Below, piece after piece: positions 21,948 to 61,489 of a DNA stretch of 64,000 bases. Location of the stretch: the NCBI RefSeq assembly GCF_029892065.1, contig NZ_CP120373.1:2301001-2365000 (forward strand), in the 5' to 3' direction. Below the pieces are notes generated by a model. That model did not search any database and had not been told where the DNA came from. It saw only the letters and a list, made by a program, of their open reading frames with translations. Positions within the stretch are counted from its first letter, which is position 1; each line of letters starts with the position of its first letter. The translations under genes were made by a program, and so were the position numbers. The DNA comes from Sinorhizobium garamanticum (lineage in GTDB: Bacteria; Pseudomonadota; Alphaproteobacteria; Rhizobiales; Rhizobiaceae).

Positions 21948-23660
21948 ATGCCCTACAAGATGTCGCGCGCGGCCTATGCCAACATGTTCGGTCCGACGGT
22001 GGGCGACAAGGTGCGCCTTGCCGATACCGAGCTTTTCATCGAGGTCGAGAAGGATTTCACCACCTATGGTGAAGAGGTGAAGTTCGGCGGCGGCAAGGTC
22101 ATCCGTGACGGCATGGGGCAAAGCCAAGTGACGCGCGAGGGCGGCGCCGTCGATACCGTGATCACCAACGCGCTGATCCTCGACCATTGGGGGATCGTGA
22201 AGGCGGATATCGGCCTCAAGGACGGGCGGATCGCGGCGATCGGCAAGGCCGGCAATCCGGACACGCAGCCGGGTGTCACCATCATCGTCGGACCGGGCAC
22301 GGAGGTCATCGCCGGCGAGGGCAAGATCGTCACGGCCGGCGGCATGGACAGCCATATTCATTTCATCTGCCCGCAGCAGATCGAGGAAGCGCTGATGAGC
22401 GGCATCACCTGCATGCTGGGCGGCGGCACCGGCCCGGCGCACGGCACGCTCGCAACGACCTGCACCCCCGGCCCCTGGCACATCGCCCGGATGATCGAGG
22501 CAGCGGACGCCTTTCCGATGAATCTCGCCTTTGCCGGCAAGGGCAATGCCTCGCTCCCCGGTGCGCTGGTGGAAATGGTGCTCGGCGGTGCCACGTCGCT
22601 GAAGCTGCACGAGGATTGGGGCACGACGCCGGCGGCGATCGACTGCTGCCTGTCGGTCGCCGACGAATATGACGTCCAGGTGATGATCCACACCGATACG
22701 CTGAACGAAAGCGGCTTCGTCGAGGATACGATCGCCGCGATCAAGGGCCGGACAATCCACGCCTTCCATACGGAGGGGGCGGGCGGTGGCCATGCGCCGG
22801 ATATCATCAAGATCTGCGGCCAGCCGAATGTCATTCCGTCCTCGACCAATCCGACGCGGCCCTATACGCTCAACACGCTGGCAGAGCATCTCGACATGCT
22901 GATGGTCTGCCATCACCTGTCGCCCTCCATCCCGGAGGATATTGCCTTTGCCGAAAGCCGCATCCGCAAGGAAACGATCGCGGCCGAGGACATCCTGCAC
23001 GACATCGGCGCCTTTTCGATCATCTCGTCCGACAGCCAGGCGATGGGCCGCGTCGGCGAGGTGGCGATCCGAACCTGGCAGACGGCCGACAAGATGAAGC
23101 GCCAGCGCGGGCGGCTCAGGCAAGAGACCGGCGACAACGACAACTTCCGGGTCAAGCGCTACATCGCCAAATACACGATCAACCCCGCGATCGCGCACGG
23201 TCTCAGCCACGAGATCGGTTCGCTCGAAGTGGGCAAGCGTGCCGACCTCGTCATCTGGAACCCGGCGTTCTTCGGCGTGAAGCCCGACATGGTGCTGCTC
23301 GGTGGCTCGATCGCCGCGGCACTGATGGGCGATCCGAACGCCTCGATCCCGACACCGCAGCCGGTCCACTACCGGCCGATGTTCGGGGCCTATGGCCGGA
23401 ACCGCACGAATTCCTCCGTCACCTTCGTCTCGCAGGCATCGCTTGATGCCGGACTTGCAGGCAGGCTCGGTGTCGCCAAGGAACTCGTCGCCGTCCAGAA
23501 CACCCGCGGCGGCATCGGCAAGGCGTCGATGATCCACAACAGCCTCACGCCGCATATCGAGGTCGACCCGGAGACCTACGAGGTCCGTGCCGACGGCGAA
23601 CTCTTGACCTGCGAGCCGGCGACGGTTCTGCCGATGGCGCAACGCTACTTCCTGTTCTAG
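21948..23660 (+). CDS. ureC: Urease subunit alpha
   Basis: A 570-residue catalytic subunit. Nickel ligands are visible: HIHF near residue 137, the carbamylated Lys219 in [11 protein letters not shown], His in MIHTDTLNE and [12 protein letters not shown], and Asp in the C-terminal third. The flap cysteine/histidine region is [20 protein letters not shown]. All catalytic elements are intact and length is normal. It hydrolyses urea. A long antisense open frame across this gene is a codon-bias shadow. Confidence 0.97.
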
Positions 23661-57643: not shown

Positions 57644-59227
57644 ATGCGCGAATATGTCGTCGCGGTCGATATCGGCACCGGTAGCGCCCGTGCCGGCATT
57701 TTTGACCGGAAAGGCAAGCTTCTCGCGCGGGCCGACAGGCCGATTGCCATGAACCGGCCGGAAGAAAACCACGCCGAGCAGGATTCCGAGGACATCTGGG
57801 CGGCGGTCTGCGGGGCGGTCAAGGCGGCACGCGGCCACGCCGGCGTCGCTGCGGAGAATGTCGCGGCGATCGGTTTCGACGCGACCTGCTCGCTGGTCGT
57901 GCGCGACCGTGACGGCGCACAGCTTTCAGTCAATCGTGCCGGTGACGCGCGCTGGGACACGATCGTCTGGCTCGATCACCGAGCGCTCAAGGAGGCCGAT
58001 TTCTGCACGTCGACAGAACATCCCGTCCTTCACCATTCCGGCCGCGTGATGTCGCCGGAGATGGAAATGCCGAAGCTGATGTGGCTGAAGCGAAACCTTC
58101 CAGCGCAATGGGAAAGGGCCGGTTATTTCTTCGATCTGGCGGATTACATGTCCTGGCGCGCGACGGGCAGCGCGGCGCGTTCGCGTTGCACGCTCACGGC
58201 AAAATGGAACTATCTCGCGCATAAGGAGAGAGGCTGGCAGCCGGACTATCTCGAACAGATCGGCCTTGCGGACCTTCTCGATCGAGGGGGATTGCCCGAG
58301 GAAACCCTGCCCGTCGGCACTGCGGTTGGGCGCCTGACCGAGACGGCAGCGGAAGAGCTCGGCCTCGACGCGGAATGCTACGTTGCACCAGGGCTGATCG
58401 ATGCCTATGCCGGCGCGCTCGGTGTGCTCGGCAGATTTGCCGCCGAGCCCGCAAATCTCGAACGGCAACTCGCCCTCATCGCCGGCACATCGAGCTGCAT
58501 TGTCGCCTTTTCACGCGAGATGAAGCCTGGCTTCGGCATGTGGGGGCCGTATTTCGAAGCGGTGCTTCCGGGCTGCTGGCTGGTCGAGGGCGGGCAGTCG
58601 GCGACGGGCGCGCTCCTCGATCATATCGTGCGCGTGCATGGCGGAGGGCGGGAACCGACCGCGGAAACGCACATGAAGATCATCGGGCGCGTGCAGGAAC
58701 TGCGCGCGCTGCATGGCCCGGGCTTCGCCGATCGGCTGCACGTCCTTCCCGATTTTCACGGCAACCGGTCGCCACTCGCCGATCCGCACGCGCTCGGCGT
58801 CATCAGCGGTCTCGCGCTCGATTCATCGTTCGATGGGCTTTGCCGGCTCTATTGGCGCACCTGCGTCGCCATCGCGCTTGGAATCCGGCACATTCTCGAA
58901 ATGATGAATGAGGCGGGATACAATCTCGATACGCTGCACGTGACCGGCGGCCATGTGCGCAATCCGTTGCTGATAGAGCTTTATTGCGACGCGACCGGCT
59001 GCCGCGTGGTTGCGCCCGAGACGCCCGATGCCGTGCTGCTCGGCACTGCGATGGCGGCTGCTGTTGCCGGCGGGCTTTATTCCGACCTTGCAAAGGCGGG
59101 GACAGCAATGGCGTCGGGCGGTCAGGAACGTCTTCCCGATGCTGCATCGCGCCACCTCTACGACCGAGATTATCGGCGGTTTCTGGCACTTTACCGGCAT
59201 CGCGCGGAGCTGGAAGCGATGGAGTAG
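57644..59227 (+). CDS. FGGY-family carbohydrate kinase (ribulokinase-like)
   Basis: A 527-residue sugar kinase. The N-terminal phosphate-binding motif is AVDIGTGSARAGIFD; IGFDATCSLVV and the catalytic-base region APGLIDAYAGALG are typical of the ribulokinase/D-ribulokinase branch. The C-terminal adenosine-binding motif is VTGGHVRNPLLIELYCD. It probably phosphorylates a ketose produced by the polyol dehydrogenases upstream. ATG at 57644 is used; an in-frame GTG at 57617 lies in the repeat. Often annotated xylB-like; the exact substrate is uncertain. Confidence 0.88.
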   Translation: MREYVVAVDIGTGSARAGIFDRKGKLLARADRPIAMNRPEENHAEQDSEDIWAAVCGAVKAARGHAGVAAENVAAIGFDATCSLVVRDRDGAQLSVNRAGDARWDTIVWLDHRALKEADFCTSTEHPVLHHSGRVMSPEMEMPKLMWLKRNLPAQWERAGYFFDLADYMSWRATGSAARSRCTLTAKWNYLAHKERGWQPDYLEQIGLADLLDRGGLPEETLPVGTAVGRLTETAAEELGLDAECYVAPGLIDAYAGALGVLGRFAAEPANLERQLALIAGTSSCIVAFSREMKPGFGMWGPYFEAVLPGCWLVEGGQSATGALLDHIVRVHGGGREPTAETHMKIIGRVQELRALHGPGFADRLHVLPDFHGNRSPLADPHALGVISGLALDSSFDGLCRLYWRTCVAIALGIRHILEMMNEAGYNLDTLHVTGGHVRNPLLIELYCDATGCRVVAPETPDAVLLGTAMAAAVAGGLYSDLAKAGTAMASGGQERLPDAASRHLYDRDYRRFLALYRHRAELEAME

Positions 59228-59235
59228 CCGGCGCC

Positions 59236-59345
59236 ACTGCATGTTCTTATTCTTAAATCGTAGCCGATTTAAGAATAAGAACATGCAGCAAATTCAAAGT
59301 CCTGCGCGTCCTTTGCGCGTCTGAAAAAGACGCGCGGCGCTGCAG
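59236..59345. repeat. RIME-like mosaic repeat, complete copy (reverse orientation)
   Basis: CTGCATGTTCTTATTCTTAAATCG (59238 on) pairs with CGATTTAAGAATAAGAACATGCAG, a nearly perfect 24-base stem. The GCGCGTC-TGAAAAA-GACGCGC module follows. Its orientation is opposite to the copies at 25227 and 61388. Confidence 0.88.
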
Positions 59346-59365
59346 GCATCGATTTCATTTTTTGT

Positions 59366-59390
59366 GGAACCTTTTTCTTGCTCGCGCGTT
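59366..59390 (+). promoter_or_regulatory. RpoE2-type (GSR) promoter of a candidate small RNA
   Basis: GGAAC (59366-59370), 16 bases, CGTT (59387-59390). This is the EcfG/RpoE2 consensus. No protein-coding gene follows on this strand before the terminator at 59491-59524. Confidence 0.7.
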
Positions 59391-59396
59391 AGGACG

Positions 59397-59524
59397 AATA
59401 GCCGGACGGTGGCGCACATCGCCCCCAATGTGACGCCGGAGGCATACCGCCGGTTGCCAACTCACATCCCCTCTGTGAGTTGATAAAGCTCAGCCAGTGC
59501 CTTTCCCTCGGCACTGGCTGTTTT
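59397..59524 (+). ncRNA. Candidate general-stress small RNA
   Basis: Between a GGAAC-N16-CGTT promoter and a strong terminator lie about 128 bases without a credible reading frame: the only ATG (59429) is followed at once by TGA. The predicted RNA has a middle hairpin CAACTCAC/GTGAGTTG (59458-59482) whose nine-base loop ATCCCCTCT is CU-rich, like the exposed anti-Shine-Dalgarno loops of rhizobial trans-acting sRNAs. The 3' end is an 11-base perfect stem with TTTT. It lies between the FGGY kinase and the 3' end of rsiB1. RpoE2-dependent sRNAs are known in S. meliloti; I cannot say whether this is one already named. Confidence 0.62.
59491..59524 (+). terminator. Terminator of the candidate small RNA
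   Basis: CAGCCAGTGCC (59491-59501) pairs perfectly with GGCACTGGCTG (59510-59520), followed by TTTT. It may also act on the convergent rsiB1 transcript. Confidence 0.85.
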
Positions 59525-59582
59525 GCGTTAAGACATGTGGCTTTATCGACGACAGAATCGCCGCCGTTTCCCGATTTGCGGT

Positions 59583-60377
59583 TCAGGCGGCCGCCTTCGT
59601 CGATTCGTTGAAGAAGAGCGCCTGGCTGATAAGCGCCTTGACCATTTCCGGGTTGAAGGGCTTCGTGACGAGGAAGGTTGGTTCGGGCCGTTCGCCGGTC
59701 AACAGCCTTTCGGGGAAGGCGGTGATGAAAATCACCGGAATGGCGCTGCTCTTCAGGATCTCGTTCACGGCATCTATGCCGGAACTTCCATCGGCCAACT
59801 GGATGTCGGCGAGCACCATGCTCGGCTTTGTTTCCTTGTAAAGCGCGATTGCCTCGTCCCGGGTGCGCGCAATGCCGGTGACGCGATGGCCGAGACTTTT
59901 GACCATCTGCTCGATGTCGATCGCGATCAGCGGTTCGTCCTCGATGATCATGATATCGGTCGCAACCTGACGGGAGATTTCCTGCGATGCCCGCTCGAGA
60001 AGCGCGCTCAGTTTGTCTGCATCGACATCAAGCACCTCGGCTGCCTCGTTAGGGCTGAAGCCTTCGACCGAGACGAGCAGGAACGCCTGGCGCGCCAGCG
60101 GCGACACCGCCGCGAGGTTGACCGATGCCCGCTGTTCCCAGGCAAAAGGTGAAACCGGTTCGGGGATCAGGACCGAGGATGACCCGAACAATGACGTATA
60201 AAGACGAAACAGGGCGACCCTGTCGTTGCTTGCTTCGGGAAAGATCGTGGTATCTGCGATGAGAGCCTCGAGAACCGCGGCCACATAAGCATCACCCGAC
60301 GTTTGCGAGCCGGTCAGCGCGCGGGAATAACGGCGCAGATAGGGCAGGAGCGGCGCGATCCGGTTGGACAGTGTCAT
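59583..60377 (-). CDS. rsiB1: PhyR-type anti-anti-sigma response regulator (RsiB1)
   Basis: A 264-residue protein. Residues 1-135 are an ECF-sigma-like domain (regions 2 and 4: LARQAFLLVSVEGFSPNEAA), and residues 140-258 a receiver with phospho-acceptor Asp191 in VLADIQLADG, acidic IIEDEP and the conserved Lys in FLVTKPF. When phosphorylated, the sigma-like part binds the NepR-type anti-sigma factor and frees RpoE2. It diverges from rsiA1; both promoters carry GGAAC/CGTT boxes, so it should be under positive feedback. Confidence 0.95.
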   Translation of the reverse strand: MTLSNRIAPLLPYLRRYSRALTGSQTSGDAYVAAVLEALIADTTIFPEASNDRVALFRLYTSLFGSSSVLIPEPVSPFAWEQRASVNLAAVSPLARQAFLLVSVEGFSPNEAAEVLDVDADKLSALLERASQEISRQVATDIMIIEDEPLIAIDIEQMVKSLGHRVTGIARTRDEAIALYKETKPSMVLADIQLADGSSGIDAVNEILKSSAIPVIFITAFPERLLTGERPEPTFLVTKPFNPEMVKALISQALFFNESTKAAA

Positions 60378-60421: not shown

Positions 60422-60446
60422 AACGCCCGGCCGAAAAAAAGGTTCC
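60422..60446 (-). promoter_or_regulatory. RpoE2-type promoter of rsiB1
   Basis: On the minus strand GGAAC (60446-60442), 16 bases, CGTT (60425-60422), 45 bases before the rsiB1 start. Confidence 0.78.
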
Positions 60447-60451
60447 GCGCT

Positions 60452-60477
60452 GGAACATTTCATTTTTTTCCTGCGTT
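60452..60477 (+). promoter_or_regulatory. RpoE2-type promoter of rsiA1-rpoE2
   Basis: GGAAC (60452-60456), 17 bases, CGTT (60474-60477), 37 bases before the rsiA1 start. The -35 boxes of the two divergent promoters are five bases apart and form an inverted repeat, GTTCC-N5-GGAAC. Confidence 0.8.
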
Positions 60478-60513: not shown

Positions 60514-60726
60514 ATGAGATATAAATCAGGGGCAGGGCGGCCGATTGGCACAAGCTCTTCGAGCGGTAATCCAAATGCACAGATCGCAGCGAAGCTGAAG
60601 GCGCTCTATCAATCAGTGCAGGAAGAGGCCATTCCAGCACGGTTTCTCGATCTGCTGGAAAAGCTGGACGCGGCGGAACAGCACTCAACTCTGCAAAGCC
60701 AATCGGTTCTGCAAGGGAGGGAGTAG
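60514..60726 (+). CDS. rsiA1: NepR-type anti-sigma factor (RsiA1)
   Basis: A 70-residue protein. The NepR core is IAAKLKALYQSVQEEAIPARF followed by LDLLEKLD, the two-helix unit that wraps around the ECF sigma factor. It holds RpoE2 inactive until PhyR-P takes its place. In-frame ATGs at 60478 and 60481 are ruled out, since they would lie within or directly at the GGAAC/CGTT promoter; ATG at 60514 is used. It ends eight bases before rpoE2. Confidence 0.9.
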   Translation: MRYKSGAGRPIGTSSSSGNPNAQIAAKLKALYQSVQEEAIPARFLDLLEKLDAAEQHSTLQSQSVLQGRE

Positions 60727-60734
60727 GCGCCGGG

Positions 60735-61289
60735 ATGCCATCCGAAAACCAAGAATTCAAGCGCGAGATGCTCGCCGCACTCCCTAGTCTGCGCGCCTTT
60801 GCCATGTCGCTGATCGGTCGCCACGACCGCGCGGATGATCTCGTTCAGGACACGATCATGAAGGCCTGGGCGAAGCAGGATCATTTCGAGATCGGCACGA
60901 ACATGAAGGCATGGCTCTTCACGATCCTGCGCAACGAGCTCTACAGCCAGATGCGCAAGCGTGGTCGCGAGATTCAGGACAGCGATGGCCATTTCACGGA
61001 AACGCTCGCCCACCATCCCGAGCAATACGGTTCGCTCGATCTCCAGGATTTCCGGCGGGCCCTGGAGCAGTTGCCGCCGGACCAGCGCGAAGCGATCATC
61101 CTGGTTGGTGCATCCGGCTTTTCCTACGAAGAAGCCGCCAAGATCTGCGGCTGCGCGCTCGGCACCATCAAAAGCCGCGTCAACCGCGCGCGCCAACGCC
61201 TGCAGGAAATTCTCCAGGTGCAAGGCGAGAACGACTACGGCCCTGACGAGACCTCGGCGCCCATTACCTCGCGCGCATTCGTTTCGTGA
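60735..61289 (+). CDS. rpoE2: General stress response ECF sigma factor RpoE2 (EcfG)
   Basis: A 184-residue ECF sigma factor. Region 2 includes RADDLVQDTIMKAWAKQ and AWLFTILRNELYSQMRKRGR; region 4 includes LPPDQREAIILVGASGFSYEE and CGCALGTIKSRVNRAR. It directs the general stress response of alphaproteobacteria (starvation, heat, salt, oxidative stress) at GGAAC/CGTT promoters. It is in an operon with its anti-sigma factor, with a likely self-activated promoter. A short tail after residue 165 is variable. Confidence 0.96.
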   Translation: MPSENQEFKREMLAALPSLRAFAMSLIGRHDRADDLVQDTIMKAWAKQDHFEIGTNMKAWLFTILRNELYSQMRKRGREIQDSDGHFTETLAHHPEQYGSLDLQDFRRALEQLPPDQREAIILVGASGFSYEEAAKICGCALGTIKSRVNRARQRLQEILQVQGENDYGPDETSAPITSRAFVS

Positions 61290-61387
61290 TCTGCGTGCGC
61301 TCTTGAGGCCAGACCGTTGCAAGTCGACGGCGGTCCTGCTTTTTTTGCTTGGAGCACCAGGCGCTGCGGTGAGGGCGGGAACCTTCT

Positions 61388-61489
61388 GCAGCGCCGCGCG
61401 TCTTTTCAGACGCGCAAAGGACGCTGTAGCACTTTGAACTGCTGCATGTTGTGAACCATAAATCGGCTACGATTTACGGAGACATGCAG
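61388..61489. repeat. RIME-like mosaic repeat, complete copy
   Basis: GCAGCGCCGCGCGTCT-TTTC-AGACGCGCAAAGGACGCTGTAG, then CTGCATGTTG...TAAATCG/CGATTTA...GACATGCAG. It sits in the 254-base gap between rpoE2 and the kinase gene. Confidence 0.88.

Follow-up and report, generated by a model that had tools for sequence, protein, structure and literature searches.

What does the short region between a sugar-kinase gene and phyR encode at the general stress locus of Sinorhizobium garamanticum, and if it encodes a regulatory RNA, how would that RNA act? The window (the whole stretch of DNA that was analysed, 64,000 nucleotides) contains an FGGY sugar kinase gene (57644-59227, plus strand) followed by three regulatory genes. 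These are phyR/rsiB1 for an anti-anti-sigma response regulator (59583-60377, minus strand; Pfam PhyR_sigma2, PhyR_sigma-like and Response_reg), rsiA1/nepR for an anti-sigma factor (60514-60726, plus strand; Pfam NepR), and rpoE2/ecfG for a sigma factor (60735-61289, plus strand; Pfam Sigma70_r2 and Sigma70_r4_2). The name rsiB1 is used for the gene at the equivalent place in the S. meliloti Ak57 record. Among the matches listed, the closest phyR loci are those of Ensifer sp. IC3342 (99% protein identity) and IC4062 (98%).

An original prediction had placed a stress-induced small RNA (sRNA) in this region, and the elements that it named are present. The EcfG/RpoE2-type promoter GGAAC-N16-CGTT lies on the plus strand at 59366-59390 (GGAAC at 59366-59370, CGTT at 59387-59390). 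The intrinsic terminator (59491-59524, plus strand), 100 bases past the promoter, has an 11-bp perfect stem (59491-59501/59510-59520) followed by TTTT, or UUUU in the RNA. Between them a transcript of 128 nt is predicted (59397-59524, plus strand), its 5' end placed by the promoter spacing and its 3' end by the terminator. It is convergent with phyR, and about 58-59 bases separate the terminator end from the phyR stop. In the predicted fold, a 5' domain (59399-59456) is closed by a helix between 59399-59410 and 59446-59456 and holds hairpin 1 (59411-59437), whose 8-nt loop CGCCCCCA at 59420-59427 is a candidate C-rich seed. The original prediction had overlooked both the closing helix and this first hairpin. 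It had described a central hairpin with the CU-rich loop ATCCCCTCT on 8 bp; this is hairpin 2 (59458-59482), which has 9 pairs in the fold and the loop UCCCCUC at 59467-59473, a second candidate C-rich seed.

The 128-nt transcript, predicted to be structured, folded at -61 kcal/mol as compared to -38.7 +/- 3.8 kcal/mol for shuffled sequences (z -5.9), and none of 200 shuffles was as stable. When the parts were folded alone, the terminator gave z -7.4 and the central hairpin z -6.0; the 5' domain gave z -1.45, and 17 of 200 shuffles were equally good. The stability of the transcript comes mostly from the central hairpin and the terminator, and the 5' domain is unremarkable. The region 59228-59582 contains one terminator-like site, with 0.4 expected from shuffles. 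The exact promoter string was found 91 times in the genome (48+43 on the two strands) versus 94 times (47+47) for the reversed control. With two such similar counts the string alone has no value as evidence, and it is the conservation of the promoter that carries weight.

The RNA was matched by BLASTn in 32 of 33 same-genus genomes, its own included, and the lone miss is a 70%-complete assembly. For a wider test, named loci were gathered through similarity to phyR and not through the RNA, which gave at least 595 stretches, at least 568 of them encoding phyR relatives; the locus set analysed is the best 80 of these at least 568. The alignment A1 and the covariance model R1 comprise 39 transcripts, 32 of them from the 80 phyR loci; a pattern of terminator plus promoter served to select the transcripts, and those sharing 94% identity or more were thinned out. 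The remaining 48 loci lie outside the training rows, and the promoter lies outside the model. R1 found a single RNA in each of the 80 loci (the best 80 of at least 568), the weakest with E 2.4e-17. In its own genome the model gave a single independent match (117 bits, E 3e-28); a second entry (E 0.037) covers this site on the other strand.

The promoter is kept along with the RNA. GGAAC was present in all of the best 80 of at least 568 loci, 30-33 nt upstream of the model start, and in this set it carries 2.0 bits per position versus mostly 0.04-0.5 bits, which is near random, in the flanks and spacer. The fuller pattern GGAAC-N16/17-RTT, 0-12 nt from the model start, was found in 78 of the best 80 loci as compared to a chance expectation of 0.07 per 80 from mononucleotide shuffles, with the caveat that the 32 training loci had been selected by a pattern that includes the promoter. 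In the other two of the best 80 the spacer is one base longer. Conservation of the promoter and hairpins in relatives was one point on which the original prediction could have failed, and its reading survives. In the Rfam and covariance search that it proposed, no Rfam family reached its gathering score in the transcript region, and R1 found the RNA at every one of the best 80 of at least 568 phyR loci. Among these best 80, the distance between RNA and phyR is 1.2-1.7 kb in most Rhizobium-type loci, and a gene for an HWE kinase lies between the two in all three loci examined for it (L059, L100 and L087). In S. medicae USDA1037 the RNA and phyR are 2.2 kb apart, and the additional DNA separating them includes a lipocalin-like frame.

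The sole Rfam family above its gathering score in the window is 5_ureB_sRNA (RF02514, 102 bits, 22100-22389, minus strand). RsaE/RoxS (RF01820), which belongs to another phylum, has C-rich loops of the UCCCC type like those of the RNA, and scored 24.3 bits when 231 bases were searched (E 0.035), far below its gathering score of 79. This and the other weak Rfam matches were dropped, and RsaE/RoxS is kept as an analogy only.

Four helices were scored on A1, with the structure under test derived from the same sequences. Paired cells amounted to 91.8% versus 86.5% in shuffles, cells changed on both sides to 52 versus 16.9, and the covariation score to 0.175 versus 0.093; for each of these, none of 500 shuffles was as high. 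The number of co-varying pairs was a weaker signal (10 versus 7.1, with 12 of 500 shuffles reaching 10). Slid versions of the structure were 27-34% paired. The terminator is the best-kept helix, with 100% of cells paired. Pairing is lowest in the 5' closing helix (71%), yet pairs with two-sided changes occur in helix 1.

The unpaired C-rich runs are conserved as well. Loop 2 contains a run of four or more C in 80 of the best 80 of at least 568 loci. Of the same best 80 of at least 568, 51 have a run of this length in loop 1, 44 have one in the linker that follows hairpin 1, and 79 have one in at least one of these two places. The first run is located in loop 1 in Sinorhizobium, in both places in many intermediate lineages, and in the linker in Rhizobium proper. 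It thus seems that an unpaired C-run is retained although its location shifts, which suggests that the conserved role of the molecule is to base-pair with G-rich RNA.

We examined how far the RNA extends beyond these loci. With one genome per genus of the family, R1 matched 5 of 41 genomes. Of the four matches outside its own genome, three (L144, L189 and L190) are within 1.5 kb of phyR, and the fourth (L188) appears to be on the contig of the named locus L077, with phyR 1.6 kb away. An order-level search with strict filters and eight candidates scored per genome matched 27 of 397 genomes, 6 strongly and 21 weakly. Of the weak matches only L151 adjoins phyR and has the stress promoter; the other 20, some of which are other C-rich RNAs, were set aside on this ground. 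L190 (48.5 bits) and L151 (33.1 bits) are absent from every training set, and their phyR genes are only 56-57% identical. In both the RNA lies beside phyR, nepR and ecfG, its promoter reads GGAAC-N16-CGTT or -AGTT, and C-runs are left unpaired. Across the wider family, BLASTn matched 39 of 394 genomes, several only through a 32-35-base terminator match. From the outcomes of the family and order searches, the modelled family is therefore limited to part of the Rhizobiaceae, or R1 is too narrow. In another family of the order, four matches (L149, L150, L156 and L159) belong to a different C-rich RNA without a GGAAC promoter and with no phyR within 1.5 kb, which has unpaired CCCCCC and CUUCCCUCC runs and a CCCAGUCCC terminator.

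The original prediction implied that the RNA was new. Copies from close relatives are, however, already in the literature, and the RNA is a known one in the sense that very probable counterparts in related rhizobia have been catalogued or studied. In R. etli CFN42, ReC64 is an intergenic RNA downstream of phyR-tcrY with a consensus EcfG promoter. A 5' RACE experiment located its start, ecfG1 mutants no longer expressed it, EcfG activated its promoter in E. coli, its size on Northern blots was 88 nt, and its conservation has been reported for R. etli and R. leguminosarum (PMC3892343). ReC64 is raised under saline shock (PMC4167512), and an additional larger band has been reported (PMC2881028). 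Four R. etli-clade loci (L100, L104, L107 and L111) scored 99.5-99.9 bits with R1, whose training set includes some loci of this clade or near kin. The gene order phyR-HWE kinase-RNA in L059, L100 and L087 is the phyR-tcrY-ReC64 order. Judged by position, promoter and the fit of these clade loci to R1, the RNA is very probably the local copy of ReC64. Two differences are that the clade carries its C-run in the linker and not in loop 1, and that the R. etli-clade RNA is predicted to be about 122 nt long as compared to the 88 nt of ReC64. In L100, L104 and L111 the terminator stem begins at nt 90, and we conjecture that the 88-nt form could be the 122-nt prediction minus its terminator; processing as in GsrN would fit.

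SmelC601 (SMc06778) of S. meliloti 1021 is a 127-nt RNA on the minus strand with an RpoE2 promoter, 49.5 kb from rnTrpL (PMC7143759), and its family has been reported mainly in Sinorhizobium/Ensifer (PMC3927594). In S. meliloti Ak57 the copy of our RNA shares the strand of SmelC601 and is separated from the trp leader by 47.8 kb. Strand, length and sigma factor agree, and map position agrees within 1.7 kb; unlike this arrangement, trpE is 123-127 kb from the RNA in S. garamanticum and in a second genome (G032). In a 12,160-base stretch of Ak57 centred on the neighbourhood of the RNA, the same-strand GGAAC promoters are that of the RNA, one before rsiA1 and two inside genes. From this map position, with its 1.7-kb mismatch, the RNA is very probably the local copy of SmelC601. 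SmelC601 does not appear by name among the eight rpoE2-dependent sRNA regions of PMC3616915, which speaks against full agreement; two of these regions, SMc_sRNA_259 and 298, were left unplaced on the map here. The Ak57 sequence CP090106.1 (3.7 Mb) is titled plasmid pSymB and carries rpoD, dnaG and rsiB1-rpoE2; it looks like a mislabelled chromosome.

These comparisons bear on the claim that the sRNA is controlled by RpoE2/EcfG. The control is supported by the conserved promoter, structure and position, by the two divergent copies beside phyR-nepR-ecfG, and by the R. etli experiments (PMC3892343), and we infer that the RNA is expressed and RpoE2-dependent in S. garamanticum. The second half of the claim, repression through pairing with Shine-Dalgarno sequences, is unsupported. 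No target was found in the searches given below, and GsrN, the best-studied comparison here, activates katG in Caulobacter crescentus (PMC5869019); repression by the rhizobial RNA therefore cannot be assumed. The available text of the literature on SmelC601, ReC64 and EcfG-linked rhizobial sRNAs reports no function for the rhizobial RNA.

GsrN is processed to a stable 5' isoform and is Hfq-dependent, and Tien et al. (2018) predicted that homologues of it adjoin the GSR loci of S. meliloti and R. etli, with BLASTn matches to GsrN reported only in Caulobacteraceae (PMC5869019). The RNA resembles GsrN in its general-stress sigma promoter, the nearby GSR locus, a size of about 100 nt with a terminator, an exposed C-rich loop towards the 5' end and another exposed region. 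The loop of GsrN has six tandem C, and CGCCCCCA has five; for the loop of the rhizobial homologue, the legend says G-rich and the main text cytosine-rich (PMC5869019). Loop 1 contains CGCCCCC, which is perfectly complementary to the GGGGGCG sites that Table 1 of PMC5869019 gives for RNAs bound by GsrN.

A target search in S. garamanticum gave no clear candidate. TTGGGGGCGA occurs 12 times in the genome versus 3 times for the reversed control, one copy being the RNA gene; the other 11 sites complementary to loop 1 are mostly inside reading frames, with no convincing target among them. Eight loop-by-leader pairing tests, which covered phyR, nepR, ecfG and katG, gave shuffle p values no lower than 0.21. 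The katG leader (120 bases before one assumed start) gave 0.82 and 0.55. Feedback on phyR, nepR or ecfG was set aside, since pairing with their leaders was no better than with shuffles.

We consider it likely that the locus is a stand-alone sRNA gene of the ReC64/GsrN kind, induced by RpoE2, whose product would act in trans, its C-rich single strands pairing with G-rich stretches of mRNAs. Under stress, PhyR (RsiB1) would free RpoE2 from NepR (RsiA1), and the freed sigma factor would transcribe about 128 nt, starting at 59397 and stopping at the terminator (59524). The product would fold into the 5' domain with its C-rich loop, the hairpin with the UCCCCUC loop and the terminator, and its C-rich single strands would pair with G-rich sites of stress-related mRNAs, like Caulobacter GsrN. 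The pairing mode, the targets and the direction of regulation in this scheme are proposals. More tentatively, and with somewhat less than even confidence, we suggest that the RNA may be the rhizobial counterpart of GsrN and a post-transcriptional arm of RpoE2. Of its two C-rich seeds, one would have changed place, from hairpin loop in Sinorhizobium to linker in Rhizobium or the reverse, while remaining single-stranded, and the RNA would act on many G-rich mRNA sites, and perhaps in nodules.

A real RpoE2-made transcript might have a main role other than trans pairing, either with its terminator insulating the convergent phyR and sugar-kinase units or by acting in cis on phyR 3' ends. The full pairing of the terminator, the best-conserved helix, and its end 58 bases from the phyR stop in the window favor such a role. 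However, the RNA lies 1.2-1.7 kb from phyR in most Rhizobium-type loci with loops and promoter still kept, the HWE-kinase gene intervenes in the three loci examined, and unpaired C-rich runs are retained in 79-80 of the best 80 of at least 568 loci, which makes this role improbable. That the locus encodes a small stress peptide instead of a functional RNA is suggested by short frames on both strands, for example 59480-59611 (plus strand, 43 aa) and 59389-59514 (minus strand, 41 aa). We regard a peptide as very unlikely, because loop lengths differ by single bases among relatives (loop 2 from 9 to 15 nt in the 80 loci), a variation that would disrupt any frame, and because conservation tracks pairs and not codons. 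The frequency of the promoter string, equal to that of its reversed control, would suit a chance match ahead of a terminator with no function at all; against the cross-genus conservation, the co-variation, the invariant GGAAC and the published R. etli transcript at the equivalent place (PMC3892343), this idea has next to nothing left to recommend it.

In the preferred reading of an RpoE2-induced, trans-pairing sRNA, one covariance model joins RNAs that have been kept apart in the literature, SmelC601 (PMC3927594) and ReC64 (PMC3892343). Should the two prove to be a single RNA, retained together with its stress promoter at all the phyR loci examined, one deletion could probe a conserved RNA arm of the alphaproteobacterial stress response outside Caulobacter. 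The interest of the locus lies in this wide and strict conservation together with the question of function.

The surroundings of the RNA gene have features of their own. An HWE histidine kinase gene also flanks the sRNA-phyR-nepR-ecfG block. Further EcfG-type promoters precede phyR (GGAAC-N16-CGTT, 60422-60446, minus strand) and nepR-ecfG (GGAAC-N17-CGTT, 60452-60477, plus strand), an arrangement consistent with autoregulation of the locus. The block is framed by inverted copies of a palindromic repeat (59237-59345 and 61386-61476) that resembles a RIME/REP-type element. Its arms are perfect over 22 and 21 bases, a further arm of 37 bases matches at 86%, and the part at 59237-59288 holds a perfect palindrome of 24 bp.
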